DNA of 64,000 nt from a virus, in the IMG/VR virus record IMGVR_UViG_3300035188_001312, positions 1 to 64,000 of that record; one strand, given 5' to 3'. The position numbers and the translations under genes are program-made. Positions 28,196-39,592 of the stretch are shown piece by piece. The first letter of the stretch is position 1, and every line of letters starts with the position of its first letter. The notes beneath the pieces are model-generated. The model saw only the letters and a program-made list of their open reading frames with translations. It made no database searches and was not told the DNA's origin.

Positions 28196-31100
28196 ATGGA
28201 AATTTTGAATGAAAATTTAAACCATTATTTAAATGAAAATAACAATTACACACCTTTAAATGAAGCTGCTACTCCTATGTGGATGTCTTATATGGATGCG
28301 TTTAACGCTTTCATGGAGCAAAGTGGTAAAAGACTAGATAGATATACCACATATGATGAAATGGATCGGTATCCAGAAATACATTTGGCACTTGATATTA
28401 TCTCAACAGAAATTTTTGTATTTGATCAAATAGCGAATTCACCGTTTTTATTTAACACCAACGGAAAAATACCAGAACCAACATTAAATACATTAATTAA
28501 AAAATTTACAGATGTTTTAAAATTAAAAGAAACATTACCCTACGCAGTAAGACAAGCATTAAAATATGGTGACAGTTTTTACTTTTTAGTTAAAAACAGT
28601 AATGGTAATATGGCTGGTTTAAGACGAATAGATAACAAAGATATTGATTTTATCGAATATGATGAAGTAGGTATCGAACCTATGAATTATTACATTTCTA
28701 AAAAGAAAGTAGATGAAGCTCAAATGGGTAGTTATTTAACTTTTCTAAAATATCAAAATTTAGAATCTGCATCACAACAAAAATTAGCTGATGTGGCATC
28801 AAAAGATGGTGACGACTTTTATATTATCCAAAGAAATCAAATGGTTAGATTTATGAATCATGGTCAAAATTCACAATTTTTTCCATTTGGTGAATCATAC
28901 TTAGAATCAATTTTTCCATATTGGAAAAAAGTATCACTTTTAGAAGATTCATTAATTATTTATAGAATCGTTAGAGCCCCTGAACGTCGAGTTTTTTACA
29001 TTGATGTTGGTAAAGCACCTGCAAAAATTGCTGAAAAAGTAGTAATGCAGACAAAAGATGAAATCAAACGCAGAAGAACTGCGGCATCACAGGAAAATCA
29101 AGAAATGGGAATTGCCTCATCTTTTAATCCTTTATCCATGCAGGAGGATTATTTTTTCGCACAGCGTTGCTTATCTTTAGATACAAAAATACCACTTTTG
29201 GATGGAAGAACGTTATCTTTACAAGAACTTATAGGTGAATATACCGATGGTAAGAAAAATTACACTTATTCAGTCGATAGAAACACTGGTAAAATGATTC
29301 CAGGTGAAATTGAATGGGCGGGAATTACTAAAAAAGATGCTGAGTTGGTTAAAGTTACGCTAGATAATAATGAAGAAATAATTTGTACACCTGATCATAA
29401 ATTTATTTTGCGGGATGGTAGTTATTGTGAGGCAAAAGATTTAGACGGTAAAGAATTGATGTCATTGTATGATATTCGGAAATCTTTAGTTGTTGATGAA
29501 CTCTCTTATAGAGAAGATGTTGGTTGTTTGACAATTAAAGATTCAGGAGAAAATCATAATTTTGCTATTGCAGCAGGAGTATATGTAAAAAACTCGGATG
29601 GGCGAGGATCAAGAGTAGAAACATTGCCTGGAGCGTGTTTGGCATTGGATACCAAAATACCATTGTTAGACGGTAGAGAATTGATGCTTTCAGAAATTAT
29701 TGATGAATGGGATAATGATAAAGAAAAAGTTAATTGGGTTTATTCATGCGATCCACTAACTGGAGAATTAGCACCTGGAAAAATAACTTGGGCTGGCATC
29801 ACTAGAAAAAATACTCAGGTAATGAAAATTACTTTAGATAATGGCGAAACAGTAACATGTACCCCAGATCATAAATTCCCTATTAGAGATATTGGTTTTG
29901 TTGAAGCTCAAGACTTATCTGTGGGTCAAAGTTTAATCCCTTTTAGAAAAAGACTTGAGAAAGTTATGCCAAGAACTAAGGAATATGAACAAGTTTTTGA
30001 TGTTTCTAAAAATAAGTGGGTATTCACGCATCGTATAGTGAGTGAATGTCTACCGACAGAATTTGTTCATAATGTGGAAAAAGAGAAAAAATGCACTGTT
30101 CATCATGTAGATTTTAATAGATTTAATAACAATCCTACTAACTTAGCTCGAATGAGCAATGATGATCATAGAATTTTACACCAAGATTTGACAGGGTTCG
30201 GTAATGAATTTTGGAATAGTATGTCTAAAGACGACTATGATAGAATTTGTATGAAAATGTCAGAAGGTATTGCTGAAAAAAGAAAGGATACAAAATATAA
30301 TGAGACTTTTTTAGAAAAGCAATTAAATGCAGCTAAAAAAGGTTCTAAAGCGAGAATTACAAAACAGAATTCTGATGGTGAGTTTAAAAAAGCAGTTTAT
30401 AAAAAATCTGGTGATAGTTTAGCAAAAAGAATTCGTGATGATAAGGGTTATCAAGAACAGTTGTTAAATCATCTAGCAGATGTGCATCAACCTTGGAAAA
30501 ATGCTGAAACAGTTTTTGATAGAACCTTGTTGGAAATGACAATTTCAAGTATTAAAGAAAATAAAACCAACCATAAAAAAACGATTTTGTATAAATTGAG
30601 TACAAATACTGATTTTATGAATCATTTTCAAAAAATAAATATTTTTGATGGTGGTGTTGATAAAAGAAAATTAGATACTTTCGGTAATCAACATATGGAT
30701 AAATTGTTAAAAGAATTTAATTATCAAGGGTGGAGAGATTTTACAACTACAATTGAAAATTATAACCACAAAATTGTTAAAATCGAAGTATTGGACTATG
30801 GTATTGATGTGGGAACGATCACAGTTGATGGTAATGAAGAAATCCATAATTATCATACATTTGCATTGAGTTCGGGTGTTTTTACAAAAAATTCTAATCT
30901 TGGTGAAATTTCTGACGTCAATTACTTCTATAAAAAATTAGTTGCAGGTTTAAGAATACCTCCAACCTATTTCAATCCGGAAGCACCACCAACATGGAAT
31001 GATGGTAAAGTGGGTGCAGCTTTAGCAGAGGAAGCCAGATTTGGAAAATGGTTGACCGAAATAAGAGAACAATTCTTATGGGATTTTAAAATTTTATTTT

Positions 31101-31363
31101 TGGATTTCTTAAAAGAAAGAGGGGTCAATTTATTAGCAGATGATTTAGATATGCGTTGGAAAGAATCAATCAACGTTGCAGAAAATCAAGAACTGGATAA
31201 AATGGCACAGAGACAAACTATTTTCACTGGATTCCCAATGGAACAATTCTCACCACAATTCCTACAAAAGAAAATTTTAGGTTGGTCGGAAGAAGACATT
31301 CAAGAAAATATGACAGCGTTAATAAAATGGCAAAAATTTAAGGATAGTAATAATTTAACATAA
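28196..31363 (+). CDS. 20: Portal protein gp20 interrupted by two inteins
   Basis: The 1055-codon frame encodes a portal subunit in three exteins. Extein 1 is residues 1-324 (ends QEDYFFAQR), extein 2 is residues 467-480 (SDGRGSRVETLPGA) and extein 3 is residues 900-1055 (starts SNLGEISDVNYFYKKL). Joined they give a ~494-residue protein (T4 gp20: 524), and the joint matches the continuous gp20 block EDYW..R.GGRGT.V.TLPGG.NLGEI. The portal is the dodecameric vertex through which DNA is packaged and to which the neck binds. AAAAGGA precedes the ATG. Both inserts begin with Cys and end in Asn followed by Ser, as protein splicing needs, and keep the frame open. Confidence 0.93.
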   Translation: MEILNENLNHYLNENNNYTPLNEAATPMWMSYMDAFNAFMEQSGKRLDRYTTYDEMDRYPEIHLALDIISTEIFVFDQIANSPFLFNTNGKIPEPTLNTLIKKFTDVLKLKETLPYAVRQALKYGDSFYFLVKNSNGNMAGLRRIDNKDIDFIEYDEVGIEPMNYYISKKKVDEAQMGSYLTFLKYQNLESASQQKLADVASKDGDDFYIIQRNQMVRFMNHGQNSQFFPFGESYLESIFPYWKKVSLLEDSLIIYRIVRAPERRVFYIDVGKAPAKIAEKVVMQTKDEIKRRRTAASQENQEMGIASSFNPLSMQEDYFFAQRCLSLDTKIPLLDGRTLSLQELIGEYTDGKKNYTYSVDRNTGKMIPGEIEWAGITKKDAELVKVTLDNNEEIICTPDHKFILRDGSYCEAKDLDGKELMSLYDIRKSLVVDELSYREDVGCLTIKDSGENHNFAIAAGVYVKNSDGRGSRVETLPGACLALDTKIPLLDGRELMLSEIIDEWDNDKEKVNWVYSCDPLTGELAPGKITWAGITRKNTQVMKITLDNGETVTCTPDHKFPIRDIGFVEAQDLSVGQSLIPFRKRLEKVMPRTKEYEQVFDVSKNKWVFTHRIVSECLPTEFVHNVEKEKKCTVHHVDFNRFNNNPTNLARMSNDDHRILHQDLTGFGNEFWNSMSKDDYDRICMKMSEGIAEKRKDTKYNETFLEKQLNAAKKGSKARITKQNSDGEFKKAVYKKSGDSLAKRIRDDKGYQEQLLNHLADVHQPWKNAETVFDRTLLEMTISSIKENKTNHKKTILYKLSTNTDFMNHFQKINIFDGGVDKRKLDTFGNQHMDKLLKEFNYQGWRDFTTTIENYNHKIVKIEVLDYGIDVGTITVDGNEEIHNYHTFALSSGVFTKNSNLGEISDVNYFYKKLVAGLRIPPTYFNPEAPPTWNDGKVGAALAEEARFGKWLTEIREQFLWDFKILFLDFLKERGVNLLADDLDMRWKESINVAENQELDKMAQRQTIFTGFPMEQFSPQFLQKKILGWSEEDIQENMTALIKWQKFKDSNNLT
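29168..29593 (+). mobile_element. Mini-intein in the portal gene (no endonuclease)
   Basis: 142 residues (325-466). It starts CLSLDTKIPLLDGR (block A, Cys1), has CTPDHKF (block B, TxxH), and ends NHNFAIAAGVYVKN before Ser467 (blocks F/G). The penultimate residue is Lys rather than the usual His. No endonuclease domain fits in its length, so it can splice but not home by itself. Confidence 0.88.
29636..30892 (+). mobile_element. Large intein with HNH homing endonuclease in the portal gene
   Basis: 419 residues (481-899). It starts CLALDTKIPLLDGR, has CTPDHKF as block B and ends HNYHTFALSSGVFTKN before Ser900. Its N-terminal ~110 residues are closely related to the first intein. The inserted ~270 residues include an HNH-type segment (CTVHHVDFNRFNNNP, then NLARMSNDDHRILHQ, near 30090-30185) and a basic helical region. 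The penultimate residue is again Lys. Confidence 0.9.
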
Positions 31364-31377
31364 TTATCACCCAAATA

Positions 31378-31422
31378 TTACTAAGTTCAGTCGTCAGATT
31401 CATAGTCAATTGAACTTAGTAA
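31378..31422. repeat. 12-bp inverted repeat at the convergent gp20/Rep junction
   Basis: TTACTAAGTTCA (31378-31389) and its exact reverse complement (31411-31422) with a 21-nt loop. It spans the stop codon of the Rep gene and follows the portal stop. There is no T-run, so it could be a weak bidirectional terminator or a 3'-end stabiliser. Confidence 0.45.
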
Positions 31423-32580
31423 ATTATTCATTAATTCAATGGTTTCCATTGGATTCTTAGTGTAAGCGTCATTTGAAAAAACACCTCTAATCAAATATCC
31501 ATCAATATAAATGAATTGTTCATCACAATCATCCATCGTTTTTGCTAATAATTCATAAATTTCATTTCTCACATCTTTGTGAGTATTTTTCAACCACTCA
31601 TCAATTCTCATTTCAGCATCATATCTTTCTTCATTTTTATTAATATCAGTTTCAATCCACATTTCCTCATCAATAACTTTATATCCATTTTTCACTAATT
31701 TATCCAATTTATTTTTAGATTTACTGTAAAATTTATTTGAAGTTATTGTCTGTTGTAGTAAACCAAGTTCTATTAATCTTGATTCCGGTTGTTTGGTTAT
31801 ATTGAATTTAACTTTAGTTACATTCGCCCTACCACCATCCAATCGTTCTTTTATAGGTTCATATGTTACCCGAATATCGGATTTATCATTTATTTCATTT
31901 ATCGCCTTTTTTAAAATGTCATTGTTGAAGTACGCAAATTTTTTATTTCTTTCAGAATTGGAATTTAATAAACCTAATACTAAATCATAATCGATGGTTT
32001 TAGTTTTTATATTTTCATAATCTTTGAGTAATTCATACAGCAATTTAGTTTGCTTCAATTGTAACGAATATTGAATTGATAAGTGCATTTTTGAAAAATA
32101 ATTTTTAACATTCAAAACCATACCAATAATTTCACCATCTATGAGCAGACTAACCCTTTGACGTTTTTCATATTTGTTACTGATAACCGATACCTTATGA
32201 ACAAACGATGTGTATGATTTTACCAAATCTTTATTTTTTTGTAAAACATTTATCTTTACCTCCTTCATTCGTAAATCTCTAAGATGTCTGATAATAGATT
32301 CAAAATTACCGGAATCGTATTTTCCAAACGTTTTTGCAATATCCTTCAAATCCAAAGTAAGTTTAAATGAGGTTTCTTGATCATAAGGTAAATTATTAGA
32401 AATAATACTTTTACGTGACTCATACAAAATATAATTTATTAGATCAATTTCCATCGATGTTACCGTTGCAGTAATACCCTTACTATTTTCATCATAAAAC
32501 AAAATTTGACAAAGTTCCGATGGTTTATTGATAGTAAGTCTTTCAGAAGTTACTAATCTTTTATGTTTTTTTTCTGGCAT
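31387..32580 (-). CDS. Rep_3-family replication initiator protein
   Basis: A 397-residue protein with the two winged-helix layout of plasmid Rep_3 (RepA/RepE/pi-type) initiators. WH1 is at ~35-165 (SMEIDLINYILYESRK, then LKDIAKTFGKYDSGN and SIIRHLRDLRMKEVKI). WH2 is at ~165-275 (SIQYSLQLKQTKLLYELLKD, then ILKKAINEINDKSDIRVTYE and a VTKVKFNI strand). The last ~120 residues are acidic and unassigned. Such proteins bind iterons and open a plasmid origin; an iteron array lies ~95 bp upstream of its start. A minus-strand TATAAATA at 32614-32621 could drive it. A plasmid-type initiator within a T4-type virion cluster is unusual. A role other than origin firing cannot be excluded. Confidence 0.8.
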   Translation of the reverse strand: MPEKKHKRLVTSERLTINKPSELCQILFYDENSKGITATVTSMEIDLINYILYESRKSIISNNLPYDQETSFKLTLDLKDIAKTFGKYDSGNFESIIRHLRDLRMKEVKINVLQKNKDLVKSYTSFVHKVSVISNKYEKRQRVSLLIDGEIIGMVLNVKNYFSKMHLSIQYSLQLKQTKLLYELLKDYENIKTKTIDYDLVLGLLNSNSERNKKFAYFNNDILKKAINEINDKSDIRVTYEPIKERLDGGRANVTKVKFNITKQPESRLIELGLLQQTITSNKFYSKSKNKLDKLVKNGYKVIDEEMWIETDINKNEERYDAEMRIDEWLKNTHKDVRNEIYELLAKTMDDCDEQFIYIDGYLIRGVFSNDAYTKNPMETIELMNNLLSSIDYESDD

Positions 32581-32613
32581 ATTATTACTCTTTTTTTGGA
32601 TTTTATGTAATTT

Positions 32614-32621
32614 TATTTATA
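32614..32621 (-). promoter_or_regulatory. Late-type promoter TATAAATA upstream of rep
   Basis: Minus-strand TATAAATA 34 nt upstream of the Rep ATG, next to the iterons, so iteron-bound Rep could affect it. Confidence 0.55.
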
Positions 32622-32675
32622 CATATTTTACCAAAAAATAGTAATTTTTGAGGTTTTTTTCGGTCGAAATTTTTA

Positions 32676-32766
32676 TCGGAAAACATAAATGTTCAGTAAT
32701 TTTCGGGTCGGAAAACATAAAAGTATAGTAATTTTCGGGTCGGAAAACATAAAAGTATAGTAATTA
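32676..32766 (+). repeat. Iteron array, three direct repeats with 32-bp period
   Basis: Units start at 32676, 32708 and 32740, each TCGGAAAACATAAA followed by a variable centre and AGTAATTTTCGGG; unit 3 ends at AGTAATTA. Units 1 and 2 differ at four or fewer positions, and a degenerate half-unit (ATAGTAATTTTTGAGG) precedes them. The exact 32-bp spacing is near three helical turns, so the sites lie on one face of DNA. Confidence 0.85.
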
Positions 32767-32777
32767 TTGAAGACCGA

Positions 32778-32803
32778 CACGAAAAAAGCCCTTATTAATA
32801 AGG
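32778..32803. repeat. 25-bp repeat with CTTATTAATAAG palindrome, copy 1
   Basis: CACGAAAAAAGCCCTTATT followed by AATAAGG. It differs by one base from copy 2 at 33172-33196. On the minus strand the palindrome is followed by TTTTTT, so a terminator role is also possible. Confidence 0.65.
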
Positions 32804-32903
32804 CGAAAAAACGGATTTTTTTTGTTCTAAAGAATGATTTTAAAGAATATAAAGAAGAGCCTCTTGAGGAAAATTGCTTTCAGCAATGAAGAGCAAAAAA
32901 TTA

Positions 32904-32952
32904 TTGATTTCCTCTGAAAATGAAATCCAAAAATCAGAGCTTAATTCCATCA
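32904..32952 (+). repeat. 49-bp direct repeat, copy 1
   Basis: Identical to 33024-33072, 120 bp away. Each copy contains the inverted repeats GATTTC...GAAATC and CTCTGA...TCAGAG, so each can fold by itself. Confidence 0.85.
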
Positions 32953-33023
32953 AGTCCAGAATCAAATTTTGAAAATTATTTTTTTCCAAAAATCAAGAGA
33001 TGAAAATTAAGATCATATCTTAT

Positions 33024-33072
33024 TTGATTTCCTCTGAAAATGAAATCCAAAAATCAGAGCTTAATTCCATCA
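33024..33072 (+). repeat. 49-bp direct repeat, copy 2
   Basis: Perfect copy of 32904-32952. The intervening DNA includes a degenerate relative (CCAAAAATCAAGAGATG) of the repeat's middle. Confidence 0.85.
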
Positions 33073-33171
33073 TTTAGAATTAAGATTACAAAAGATAGAT
33101 ATTAATATTTTTTTGAAAATATGAACCGAAAAATTAGCCAAAAAGTCGAATATTCACAAATGACTATTTGG

Positions 33172-33196
33172 CACGAAAAAACCCCTTATTAATAAG
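33172..33196. repeat. 25-bp repeat with CTTATTAATAAG palindrome, copy 2
   Basis: CACGAAAAAACCCCTTATT followed by AATAAG; one mismatch to copy 1. The two copies bracket the 49-bp repeats. Confidence 0.65.
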
Positions 33197-33284
33197 CCAT
33201 TCTAAAAAGGTCAAAATAAAATTTATTTGGGGGTCAAATTAAATGACCAGAAAAAACACCAAATTAATAAAAAAAAAGCTGGGT

Positions 33285-33292
33285 TATAAATA
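33285..33292 (+). promoter_or_regulatory. Late promoter TATAAATA
   Basis: TATAAATA 50 nt upstream of the tail tube gene. Confidence 0.7.
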
Positions 33293-33342
33293 ATTAGTAC
33301 AAAAATATTTAAATATAAATTACCCTTGTAAGGAGATATAAA

Positions 33343-34035
33343 ATGGCTACATGGTATAATGGCGACGACACCTATTTGGTAACTGGAAATATTACCGCTG
33401 CTGAAGCATACAAAGATTCACTTGCAGTAAATAAAAGTTTTGGTTCACCTGCATTAAATTTAGTTGGTGATGATGATGTTCATAACGCTGAGGATTTTGA
33501 AACCAAATTGGTTCACAGATTCAGAGTTAGATTTGGTGTTTTCAAACAAATCGGACAACATTTAAAAACTATCACTAAACCAAATGTAACATTTGCAGAA
33601 GTGGAAGTTCCAAAATTAAATACAAAAGTATATTTTGCTGGTAGAAAAACTCAGGATGCTATGAGTATTGAGATTGATGATTCGTTGGATAACGCAGTTG
33701 CAAAAGCGACTCAAACTCAATTGCAAAAACAAGCAAACTTTGATACATCATTACATGCTAAATCATCTGCTGGATATTTTTTCAATGTAACAGCTGAAGA
33801 ATTATCAGGTGATGGTACTGCTTTGTTGGCGTGGTATTATGATAAATGTGTAGTTATGTCTTGTGATTACGGTACATTGGATTATTCTGATGATGGTGCA
33901 ACTGCTAACGTAACATTAAGTGTTAGATATGCAAACTTTACCACTTGGATTCATGACTTTCAATATGCTTCTGCTAATCCAACTGAAAAAGATCCAACTA
34001 ATGCACAACCATCTGATCCAGGTTCATGGAAATAG
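33343..34035 (+). CDS. 19: Tail tube protein gp19
   Basis: A 230-residue tail tube subunit (T4: 163). The core, residues ~55-205, has FRVRFGVFKQIGQHLKTITK, VTFAEVEVPKLNTKVYFAG and a long amphipathic helix (DDSLDNAVAKATQTQLQKQA), then the LAWYYDKCVVMSCDYGTLDY strand pair and NVTLSVRYANF, as in the gp19/T6SS Hcp-like tube fold. Tube rings stack inside the sheath around the tape measure. The N-terminal ~50 residues and a Pro-rich C-terminal tail are extra. AAGGAGA lies before the ATG; a late promoter precedes and a strong terminator follows the gene, as for other abundant virion proteins. Confidence 0.9.
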   Translation: MATWYNGDDTYLVTGNITAAEAYKDSLAVNKSFGSPALNLVGDDDVHNAEDFETKLVHRFRVRFGVFKQIGQHLKTITKPNVTFAEVEVPKLNTKVYFAGRKTQDAMSIEIDDSLDNAVAKATQTQLQKQANFDTSLHAKSSAGYFFNVTAEELSGDGTALLAWYYDKCVVMSCDYGTLDYSDDGATANVTLSVRYANFTTWIHDFQYASANPTEKDPTNAQPSDPGSWK

Positions 34036-37813: not shown

Positions 37814-39592
37814 ATGGATGAATCAAAAATAATACTTTACTTGAATCATAAATCAACATTAACTAATCCATCACCTAATAGATTCAAACCGGAAGTGAAA
37901 GATTTTTTAGAAAGGTGGAGAACCACCAATGATATTAGTGAACAGAATGTGAAAATTACTTTCTTTATGTATATTCATAATATTAAAAAAGTCCCATTGT
38001 GTGAATATCCAAATTGTACCTCTAATGTAAGATATAACACTTATTCAACTGGGTTTTCTGTTGGGTGTTGTCGTGATCATGCACAAAGAGCATCAAATCT
38101 TAAAAAGTTTGGTGTTGAGAAACCATTTCAATTATCCGAAATACGAAAAAAAGTATCAGCTACTTATTTAGAAAAATATGGTAATGTGAATCCATGTATG
38201 ACTGCAAATTTCACTAAAGTTATGTTGGCTCGGTATGGGTCAAAAACTGCAATGCAGTCACCAATTTTAAAGGAACGACTTAGAAAAAATTTAATTGAAA
38301 AATATGGTGGGATAGGTAATGCAAGTAAAACAATTTTTGAAAAACAAAAACAGACGATGATTTCAAAGTTTGGAGTTGAAACTTTTTTCACACATTCGGA
38401 TTTTAATCATATTGTGATGGATACTTGTTTGGAAAAATATGGGGTTGAACACCATTCACAATCTAGTAATGTTAAAGAAAAGAAACGGTTAGTTATGCAA
38501 TCTCGGTATGGGGTTGATAATTGTGCCCAAATACCCCATATAGTAGAACGATGGCAACGAGAACGCAAAGAAAAATTATTTGATAATTATTATAATCATT
38601 GGATTAAATTTGTTGAGCTTAAATTTGATAAAGATAATTTTGTTGATGCAGATAATGATTTGATTTGTATTTGCAAAACGTGTTGTGAGGAATTTGAATT
38701 TTCATTAAATAGTGAAAATAATATATATTGTCCTTTTTGTTCAAAAAATAAATCACTCCTTGAAAGGGAGATCTTTAATTTCATTGCTGATGATGGGAAA
38801 GTTTCAAATGACAGAACTATTTTGAATGGTAAGGAATTGGATATTTACCTACCCAGTAAAAATGTTGCGATTGAGGTTGATGGGATTTACTGGCATTCGG
38901 AATTGAATGGCAAAGGAAAAAATTATCATTTGAGTAAAACTGCAACATGTTTGGAAAAAGACATTCAATTGATTCATATATTTGAAAATGATTGGATGCA
39001 AAAACCTTTAATTGTTAAATCCTTAATTAATACAATATTAGGAAAGTTTGAAAAAACCATATTAACTGAAAAATGTCAGGTTCGAGAAATAACAGTGGAA
39101 GAAAAAAATAGTTTTTTGGAAGAGAATCACCTCCGAGGGATAGATGAATCAACAATACGATTTGGATTATTATGTGAAACTGTGTTACTTTCCGTTATGA
39201 CATTTATTATTTCAGAAAAATATCAATTTGAATTGATTCGGTATTGTACTAAAGTTAATTATGATGTTGTTGATAGTTTTTCAAAATTATGGAATTTCTT
39301 TGTGAACACGTATAATCCAAAACAGGTAATTACTTTTGTTGATAGACGATATAGTAATGGTGATGTTTTTAAACATCACAATTTCACACAAATAGATATT
39401 ACTTCACCAAAGTACCACTATTTTAAAAATGATTGTGTTTTAGTAGATGTTGATGAATTCAAAAAAAATAAATTTGAGTGTTTACCAACATTTGATACAT
39501 CATTAACTGAATGGGAAAATATGCAACTTAATGGATATGATCGAATTTGGGATTGTGGTGAATTAGTTTTTGTGTGGCAATCAATCTCCTAA
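37814..39592 (+). CDS. Homing endonuclease-like protein (DUF7487-type repeats, Vsr-like nuclease, C-terminal extra domain)
   Basis: A 592-residue protein. Residues ~95-250 hold about five tandem 'KKFGVEKPFQ...', 'EKYGVEHHSQS...'-type repeats, which occur in phage homing proteins and probably bind DNA. A Cys-rich finger follows (~285-318; CKTCCEEF, YCPFCSKNK). The nuclease core is at ~338-400: ELDIYLPSKNVAIEVDGIYW and HSE, then HLSKTATCLEKDIQLIHIFE, matching the EDxHD family. The C-terminal ~170 residues (HLRGIDE, SVMTFIISEKYQFELIRYC, ITFVDRRYSNGDVF) form a separate module commonly fused to such nucleases. It sits directly after the capsid terminator, in the same orientation. Its 3' end overlaps the convergent gp4 gene by 12 nt. 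Confidence 0.78.
   Translation: MDESKIILYLNHKSTLTNPSPNRFKPEVKDFLERWRTTNDISEQNVKITFFMYIHNIKKVPLCEYPNCTSNVRYNTYSTGFSVGCCRDHAQRASNLKKFGVEKPFQLSEIRKKVSATYLEKYGNVNPCMTANFTKVMLARYGSKTAMQSPILKERLRKNLIEKYGGIGNASKTIFEKQKQTMISKFGVETFFTHSDFNHIVMDTCLEKYGVEHHSQSSNVKEKKRLVMQSRYGVDNCAQIPHIVERWQRERKEKLFDNYYNHWIKFVELKFDKDNFVDADNDLICICKTCCEEFEFSLNSENNIYCPFCSKNKSLLEREIFNFIADDGKVSNDRTILNGKELDIYLPSKNVAIEVDGIYWHSELNGKGKNYHLSKTATCLEKDIQLIHIFENDWMQKPLIVKSLINTILGKFEKTILTEKCQVREITVEEKNSFLEENHLRGIDESTIRFGLLCETVLLSVMTFIISEKYQFELIRYCTKVNYDVVDSFSKLWNFFVNTYNPKQVITFVDRRYSNGDVFKHHNFTQIDITSPKYHYFKNDCVLVDVDEFKKNKFECLPTFDTSLTEWENMQLNGYDRIWDCGELVFVWQSIS

Follow-up and report, generated by a model that had tools for sequence, protein, structure and literature searches.

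Does a plasmid-type initiator gene lodged among the virion genes of a T4-like virus mark a site where that virus starts its own replication, or is it a passenger? The question is raised by the minus strand of a 64,000-nucleotide stretch (positions 1 to 64,000 of IMG/VR record IMGVR_UViG_3300035188_001312, hereafter the window), where an open reading frame (ORF) of 397 residues lies at 31387-32580, as an earlier note had recorded. That note, made from the letters alone, had read the gene as a Rep_3 initiator (here rep, encoding Rep) with an iteron origin. Our comparisons suggest that the locus is probably a plasmid-type Rep_3/iteron origin of a T4-superfamily jumbo phage lineage, and one of two in the genome. 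In the best reading of the sequence data, a role in replication is indicated by a second copy of the unit, a conserved element, inverted iterons that match their own arrays, and recurrence in relatives; the window copy would then be a second origin, inserted between the portal and tail tube genes.

The Minus-Strand Gene Encodes a Rep_3-Family Initiator

Assignment to the Rep_3 family was confirmed by Pfam, in which both domains exceeded their cutoffs. Rep3_N (WH1, PF01051) matched residues 40-186 at 1.4e-7 (32.5 bits, cutoff 22.4) and Rep3_C (WH2, PF21205) matched residues 212-261 at 3.1e-10 (40.6 bits, cutoff 21.1), followed by an extra, mostly helical C-terminal region at about 270-397. In PHROGs the match was to phrog_4402, "replication initiation protein" (9.8e-14). 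Rep3_N and Rep3_C were both matched by all nine phage Reps considered below (E up to 0.01), and a profile of these nine, searched against Protein Data Bank (PDB) sequences with E up to 10, returned eight matches, every one a Rep initiator. R6K pi was found at 9.3e-8 and the remaining entries at 0.003 to 0.8, with those of F RepE, from 0.003 upward, weaker than R6K pi. Window Rep alone, as a single-sequence query, had no match in the PDB.

The two winged-helix layout proposed in the earlier note was also seen in a predicted structure, on which the Pfam domains and the fold matches agreed. Foldseek paired the model with RepE54 (7sgc) at 9.5e-9, and VIA aligned it with RepE54 (1rep) at Z 11.5 across 201 residues (root-mean-square deviation [rmsd] 7.1), with R6K pi at Z 9.6 (residues ~13-266 for both), and with the WH1 domain of pPS10 RepA at Z 9.3; RctB (Z 7.5) and other winged-helix chains scored below the Rep structures. 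An rmsd above 7 may be caused by a poorly placed domain pair in the model. The top match in a viral structure library was a protein from an uncultured phage, annotated by name as initiating plasmid replication (1e-8).

In a plasmid collection, 45 records matched window Rep, including those of Runella, Hymenobacter, Haemophilus, and Paraburkholderia, all at less than 60% identity and none covering more than 80% of the query. A tblastn search of 50,697 phage records gave a single weak match (MT836154.1, 7e-4), and the Rep of a related locus (L056) gave none in phage records. No relative was found in genome contigs with window Rep as a single-sequence query, and the Rep profile drew three weak matches from contigs of metagenome-assembled genomes (2e-7 to 5e-7, 27-30% identity).

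Iterons Precede rep and an Inverted Copy Lies within It

Three 32-bp direct repeats occupy 32676-32771, with the core ATTACTATACTTTTATGTTTTCCGA in the sense of rep (repeat features are given here without strand). Both their exact register, with starts at 32676, 32708, and 32740, and the 95-bp gap to rep were as previously described. Relative to the first copy, the second is 91% and the third 78% identical, the latter decaying toward its end. Tandem Repeats Finder (TRF) reported a single array, at 32676-32765 with a period of 32, and the iterons were the sole site in the window where three copies agreed at 17 or more of 20 positions (periods 18-60). When the intergenic region was dinucleotide-shuffled 500 times, the best triple-repeat score was 12, which, together with the shuffle test of related arrays described below, ruled out a chance repeat. 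A degenerate iteron half, the closest to rep, lies at 32633-32651 (direct repeat, 84%) and was counted as a fourth copy in that test.

Within the 5' end of rep, at 32547-32569, we found an inverted iteron copy of 23 nt (87% complementary), a candidate operator for autoregulation. It scored 21 against its own array; none of 200 simulated sequences exceeded 14, and the arrays of four related loci reached 11 at most. The iteron core pattern occurred only at its own locus among 97 loci compared, with the whole of a 306-kb record from the same phage included.

The Same Phage Carries a Second Rep and Iteron Array

The window falls within a 140,755-bp virus record whose ends match inside IMGVR_UViG_3300035665_000001 (306,333 bp; G001). 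The offset is 35,264 for the first end and 35,228 for the last, which indicates a small difference in length between them. The 2.1-kb rep region is identical, and we treated both records as a single phage. At 185781-186956, about 118 kb away, G001 encodes another Rep that is 50% identical to that of the window. Compared with each other, the two arrays scored 9 in direct and 11 in inverted orientation, and inverted comparisons between arrays spanned 7 to 12. The inverted iteron of the second copy is a perfect 16-mer inside its ORF, and the core pattern of its iterons was likewise confined to its own locus among the 97 compared. Given that the iteron sequences are unrelated, the two origins could be controlled independently.

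Related Loci Share a Conserved Element but Not Iteron Sequence

We searched for Rep in 18 records, G001 among them, that had been found through the gp23 of the window. Matches occurred in four, namely G001, G003 (36% identical), G018, and G004 (40% each); the last two are close to each other and hence not independent. These four were the only records longer than 80 kb, the other 14 being at most 42,487 bp and without a match. Profile scanning of viral contigs identified nine Rep loci in eight records, and a fuller profile returned the identical nine. The group of phages bearing Rep and iterons thus includes at least four records with T4-type capsid genes, two of them closely related.

Five loci (the window, the second copy in G001, L049, L051, and L056) were classed as type A and four (G003, G004, G018, and L054) as type B. 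Toward rep, type A loci present an AT-rich element of about 90 bp, then three to four iterons plus partial copies spaced at 22-32 bp, mostly 28-32, and then rep itself. In type B, repeats flank an AT-rich stretch on both sides. One kind of Rep C-terminal region beyond the Rep_3 fold (~270-397) was common to the window, L049, L050, and L051; type B loci have another kind, and that of L056 resembles neither.

In the window, the element lies on the minus strand at 32780-32869 and consists of TTCTTTA repeats followed by TTATTAATAAGG-GTTTTTTC. It is common to all five type A loci and is a candidate unwinding element. On the 306-kb record, the element model gave two strong sites, each adjoining a rep, with the third best at E 0.006. 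A model built from L049, L051, and L056 only, excluding both G001 copies, still retrieved these at 1.9e-17 and 7.5e-11 (the latter being the window element), the next site having an E of 0.45. An exact-pattern scan of the viral collection returned three stretches, all of them rep loci that had supplied the pattern.

Each of the five type A arrays exceeded all 200 dinucleotide shuffles of its own region, the margin being thin at L051 (48 vs. 45). TRF reported no iteron array at L051 or L056, although spaced repeats there surpassed the shuffles. Close to the rep start, four of the five have their own iteron in inverted orientation, with scores of 21 in the window, 21 in the second copy, 13 in L051, and 18 in L056, which were reached by 0, 0, 4, and 1 of 200 simulated sequences, respectively. 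The arrays of other loci scored at most 11, 10, 10, and 13 on these same stretches. Such an arrangement resembles self-regulated iteron replicons, the operator role being putative.

Type A loci vary in their arrays and agree in the flanking element, and partial likeness was seen for L049-L056 (18), L051-L056 (17), and the second copy with L049 (15). This pattern could be read as the mark of a weapon or shield, in which iterons and Rep form an incompatibility device, titrating or blocking the initiator on which resident Rep_3 plasmids depend, or that of rival phages whose iterons are the same. The differing arrays, with the first two pairs as a reservation, and the presence of three iteron sets in two records of a single metagenome (3300035665) fit such a role. 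Divergence is equally expected, however, where two origins in one genome must avoid interfering with each other, and we regard the incompatibility device as very improbable.

An Apparent Insertion at the Portal-Tube Junction

The T4-like virion setting named in the earlier note was upheld by Pfam and PHROGs. To the left of rep lies a portal gene (gp20) with inteins on the plus strand (28196-31363; Portal_T4 7.7e-63, Intein_splicing 2.8e-20), and to the right a tail tube gene, also on the plus strand (33343-34035; phrog_4542 8.5e-27), beyond which follow a gp21-type protease (Peptidase_S77 3.3e-34) and gp23 (Gp23 6.7e-80). Beyond the rep unit and ahead of the tube gene, the plus strand carries TATAAATA at 33285-33292, which we take to be the T4 late promoter consensus.

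For comparison, ORFs were listed for 7 of 17 relatives fetched besides the phage of the window. In all seven, 78-142 bp separate the gene in the portal position from the next gene, with no rep between them. The junction was read in six, where the next gene begins like the tube gene in five and differently in L020; TATAAATA precedes the downstream gene in five of the six, L009 having CATAAATA. Because the relatives lack rep at this junction and the window retains TATAAATA before the tube gene, the window appears to have gained a compact cassette, about 1.9 kb long, after the portal stop and ahead of the tube promoter.

These observations also suit a different account, in which the window copy is chiefly a mobile rep-ori unit, or what is left of a captured plasmid, that sits in an intergenic gap and contributes little to phage replication, the other copy being the working origin. 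Apart from the empty junctions and the surviving late-promoter motif, the type A loci differ in their neighboring genes, and inteins and homing-endonuclease genes occur in the region. Yet rep is still full length in the window copy, which has also kept its iterons, the conserved element, and an inverted iteron of its own sequence, and apart from rep there is no ORF of recombinase size within the cassette. We therefore consider a largely idle cassette unlikely and retain the reading of a second origin, placed by insertion.

The portal gene has two intein splicing stretches and a match to an HNH endonuclease, and a homing-endonuclease-like gene with repeated "NLEKYGVE"-like units lies at 37814-39592 (phrog_3339, 1.2e-106), further genes of this kind being seen by reading in L042 and L003/L004.

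A Proposed Mechanism and the Results That Weigh on It

Under the origin reading, the initiator would be expressed from a promoter of its own that opposes the late genes. Rep monomers would bind the iterons and help to melt the adjoining AT-rich conserved element, and the Rep complex would then recruit a replicative helicase, probably host DnaB. Repression of rep would follow when Rep occupies the inverted iteron close to the start of its gene. Each origin in G001 would answer to its own initiator for firing and control, with no cross-inhibition, as in compatible plasmids. All of these steps, from promoter use through binding, melting, helicase loading, and autorepression to a part in phage replication, are inferred, and recruitment of host DnaB is a proposal.

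This proposal was examined through helicase content. A DnaB_C query detected the helicases of T4 (5.5e-19) and PA5oct (1.9e-24), the positive controls, and nothing at E up to 1 in G001, G018, G004, or G019. Similarly, a query made from the helicase of G022 found T4 and PA5oct and none in G001, G018, G004, G019, or G003. An unseen helicase may be diverged, split by inteins, or absent from records that are possibly incomplete. We would sooner doubt than accept a broader scenario, offered tentatively, in which a lytic T4-superfamily jumbo lineage gave up T4-style helicase-driven origins, Rep_3 initiators load host DnaB, two replicons on one molecule act as compatible plasmids, and iteron divergence stops the rival origins of co-occurring phages from shutting each other down.

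Several results weigh against the origin reading or its mechanism. Of six records, one (G022) has a DnaB-type helicase as well as Rep, so Rep is no simple helicase replacement. Queries with T4 primase and UvsX found nothing in all six records while matching PA5oct, and the helicase argument is weakened because these queries failed in the same records. A T4-type capsid gene was present in only four of the eight Rep records. The type A element was not found in the type B records (best E 0.005-0.03 in G003, G004, G018, and G021), and L049 has no inverted iteron, its own score of 9 being reached by 166 of 200 simulated sequences and the array of another locus scoring 13. The predicted structure of window Rep was of middling quality, with a mean predicted local distance difference test score of 68 and a predicted template modeling score of 0.40. 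Two leads from the earlier note gave no support. A DnaA-box-like sequence is present (ATATTCACA), but the number of intergenic TTWTNCACA sites with at most one mismatch was at chance level (4 vs. 3.0 +/- 1.7 expected, for a consensus that may not be that of the host), and DnaA boxes were rejected as support for the origin. GC skew was likewise rejected, as its values of +0.23 before the locus, -0.05 across the minus-strand gene, and +0.15 after it describe no lasting switch.

The earlier note's suggestion that replication in a T4-superfamily phage may begin differently from that of T4 is supported at the level of sequence, and the second copy, the conserved element, the inverted iterons, and the relatives make a role as replication origin the best reading.

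Episomal Maintenance and Comparison with Known Systems

The earlier note had also raised persistence as an episome, that is, a phage-plasmid in which the unit keeps the phage between lytic cycles. P1 is maintained by a RepA-type initiator, a precedent in favor of this view. Initiators of the same type do so in some mycobacteriophages (PMC7157519). ParA-type AAA_31 was found in none of six records, which may be incomplete, and in all 14 control genomes (partition types ParM and TubZ were not searched), and phage/tyrosine integrase families were likewise found in 0 of 6 records and 14 of 14 controls. Two rep copies in one genome also speak against an episome, as does the position of a type B rep beside recombination genes: at L054, its divergent neighbors are SbcD/gp47-like (4.9e-59) and SbcC/gp46-like (6.9e-85), and gp46/gp47-like genes also adjoin rep in G018 by reading. 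On the AAA_31 and integrase results, the episome was rejected as the best reading, and we consider it quite improbable.

Against this background, the locus was compared with known systems. In theta plasmids, iterons lie upstream of rep with an AT-rich stretch beyond them and an inverted iteron-like sequence near the rep start. The phage locus shares this layout, together with a two winged-helix initiator, with the Rep_3 replicons of F (RepE/ori2), R6K (pi), and pPS10 (RepA). It differs in its T4-superfamily jumbo carrier, two different units per genome, some 120 additional residues at the C terminus of Rep, iterons spaced mostly at 28-32 bp, unsupported DnaA boxes, and ParA not having been found.

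T4 itself starts replication from origin transcripts and by recombination. Shared with T4 are the T4-type virion genes, in G001 a gp32-like protein and fragments of family B polymerase, and in a relative gp46/gp47-like nuclease genes. Unlike G001, in which none was detected, T4 encodes the gp41 helicase.

The RepA-type extrachromosomal prophages of mycobacteriophages, like P1, also combine a phage genome with a plasmid-type initiator, and mycobacteriophage repA runs against virion genes (PMC7157519), as rep does here. These phages differ in being temperate and in carrying parABS, the unit serving prophage maintenance. For Miko, the same source reports that repA serves the prophage state and that lytic properties appear unaltered after its deletion, which cautions that a phage-borne initiator need not serve lytic replication. 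RctB of Vibrio chromosome 2 (fold Z 7.5) is likewise an iteron-binding initiator with Rep-like central domains and autoregulation, but it serves a secondary chromosome of bacteria, whose control involves 39-mer sites and SeqA/ParB2 (PMC6090056).

Plasmid initiators on phages have been described for prophage maintenance. The present case combines T4-type virion genes, no detected integrase or ParA, two initiators in one genome, and the hallmarks of self-regulated iteron origins. The parts are known already; the T4-like setting and the doubling were not met in our literature searches, which covered titles and the starts of abstracts of open-licence papers and, among the papers listed, found no description of a T4-like or jumbo phage with a Rep_3/iteron origin. 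If the origin reading is true, giant T4-like phages can exchange their initiation mechanism for a plasmid one, and the loci offer a concrete candidate for how replication starts in phages without a recognized helicase, as well as a natural example of two orthogonal iteron origins on a single molecule.

Remaining Intergenic Repeats and Other Genes of the Phage

Two further features occupy the intergenic DNA of the window. A second copy of the CACGAAAAAA-CCCTTATTAATAAG motif lies at 33172-33196, on the outer side of the presumed origin (direct repeat, 96%). Between the conserved element and this outer TTATTAATAAG motif, outside the conserved core, a 68-bp repeat with CTCTGA...TCAGAG arms is present in two copies at 32885-33072, with starts 120 bp apart (direct repeat, 88%); a repeat search of the other type A loci found none of this type.

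Elsewhere in G001, the family B DNA polymerase appears to be split into pieces about 22 kb apart (at ~257 and ~279 kb; L042 123-830 and L043 2267-3169), one resembling motif A (phrog_262, 1.4e-10) and the other a later segment (Pfam 0.0007, below cutoff). An ORF of 113 residues adjoining the second Rep (L038 7957-8298) resembles, by reading only, an N-terminal portion of the large terminase of T4 (gp17); it had no PHROGs or Pfam match. It ends in what reads as an intein start, ASRQMSKCVKGNS, and may belong to a split intein.

At L003 (7732-11204 and 18195-19433), the large chain of ribonucleotide reductase is divided among three ORFs, two of which match inteins; a Toprim ORF of the same locus begins with what reads as the C-terminal end of an intein. 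A family of tandem ankyrin-like proteins with a common C-terminal motif (L004 16450-19648) resembles, by reading, a gene beside the second Rep. Finally, two adjacent genes resembling tRNA-guanine transglycosylases lie beside a QueE-like gene in G001 (L043 8997-11916, by reading), pointing to possible 7-deazaguanine DNA modification.

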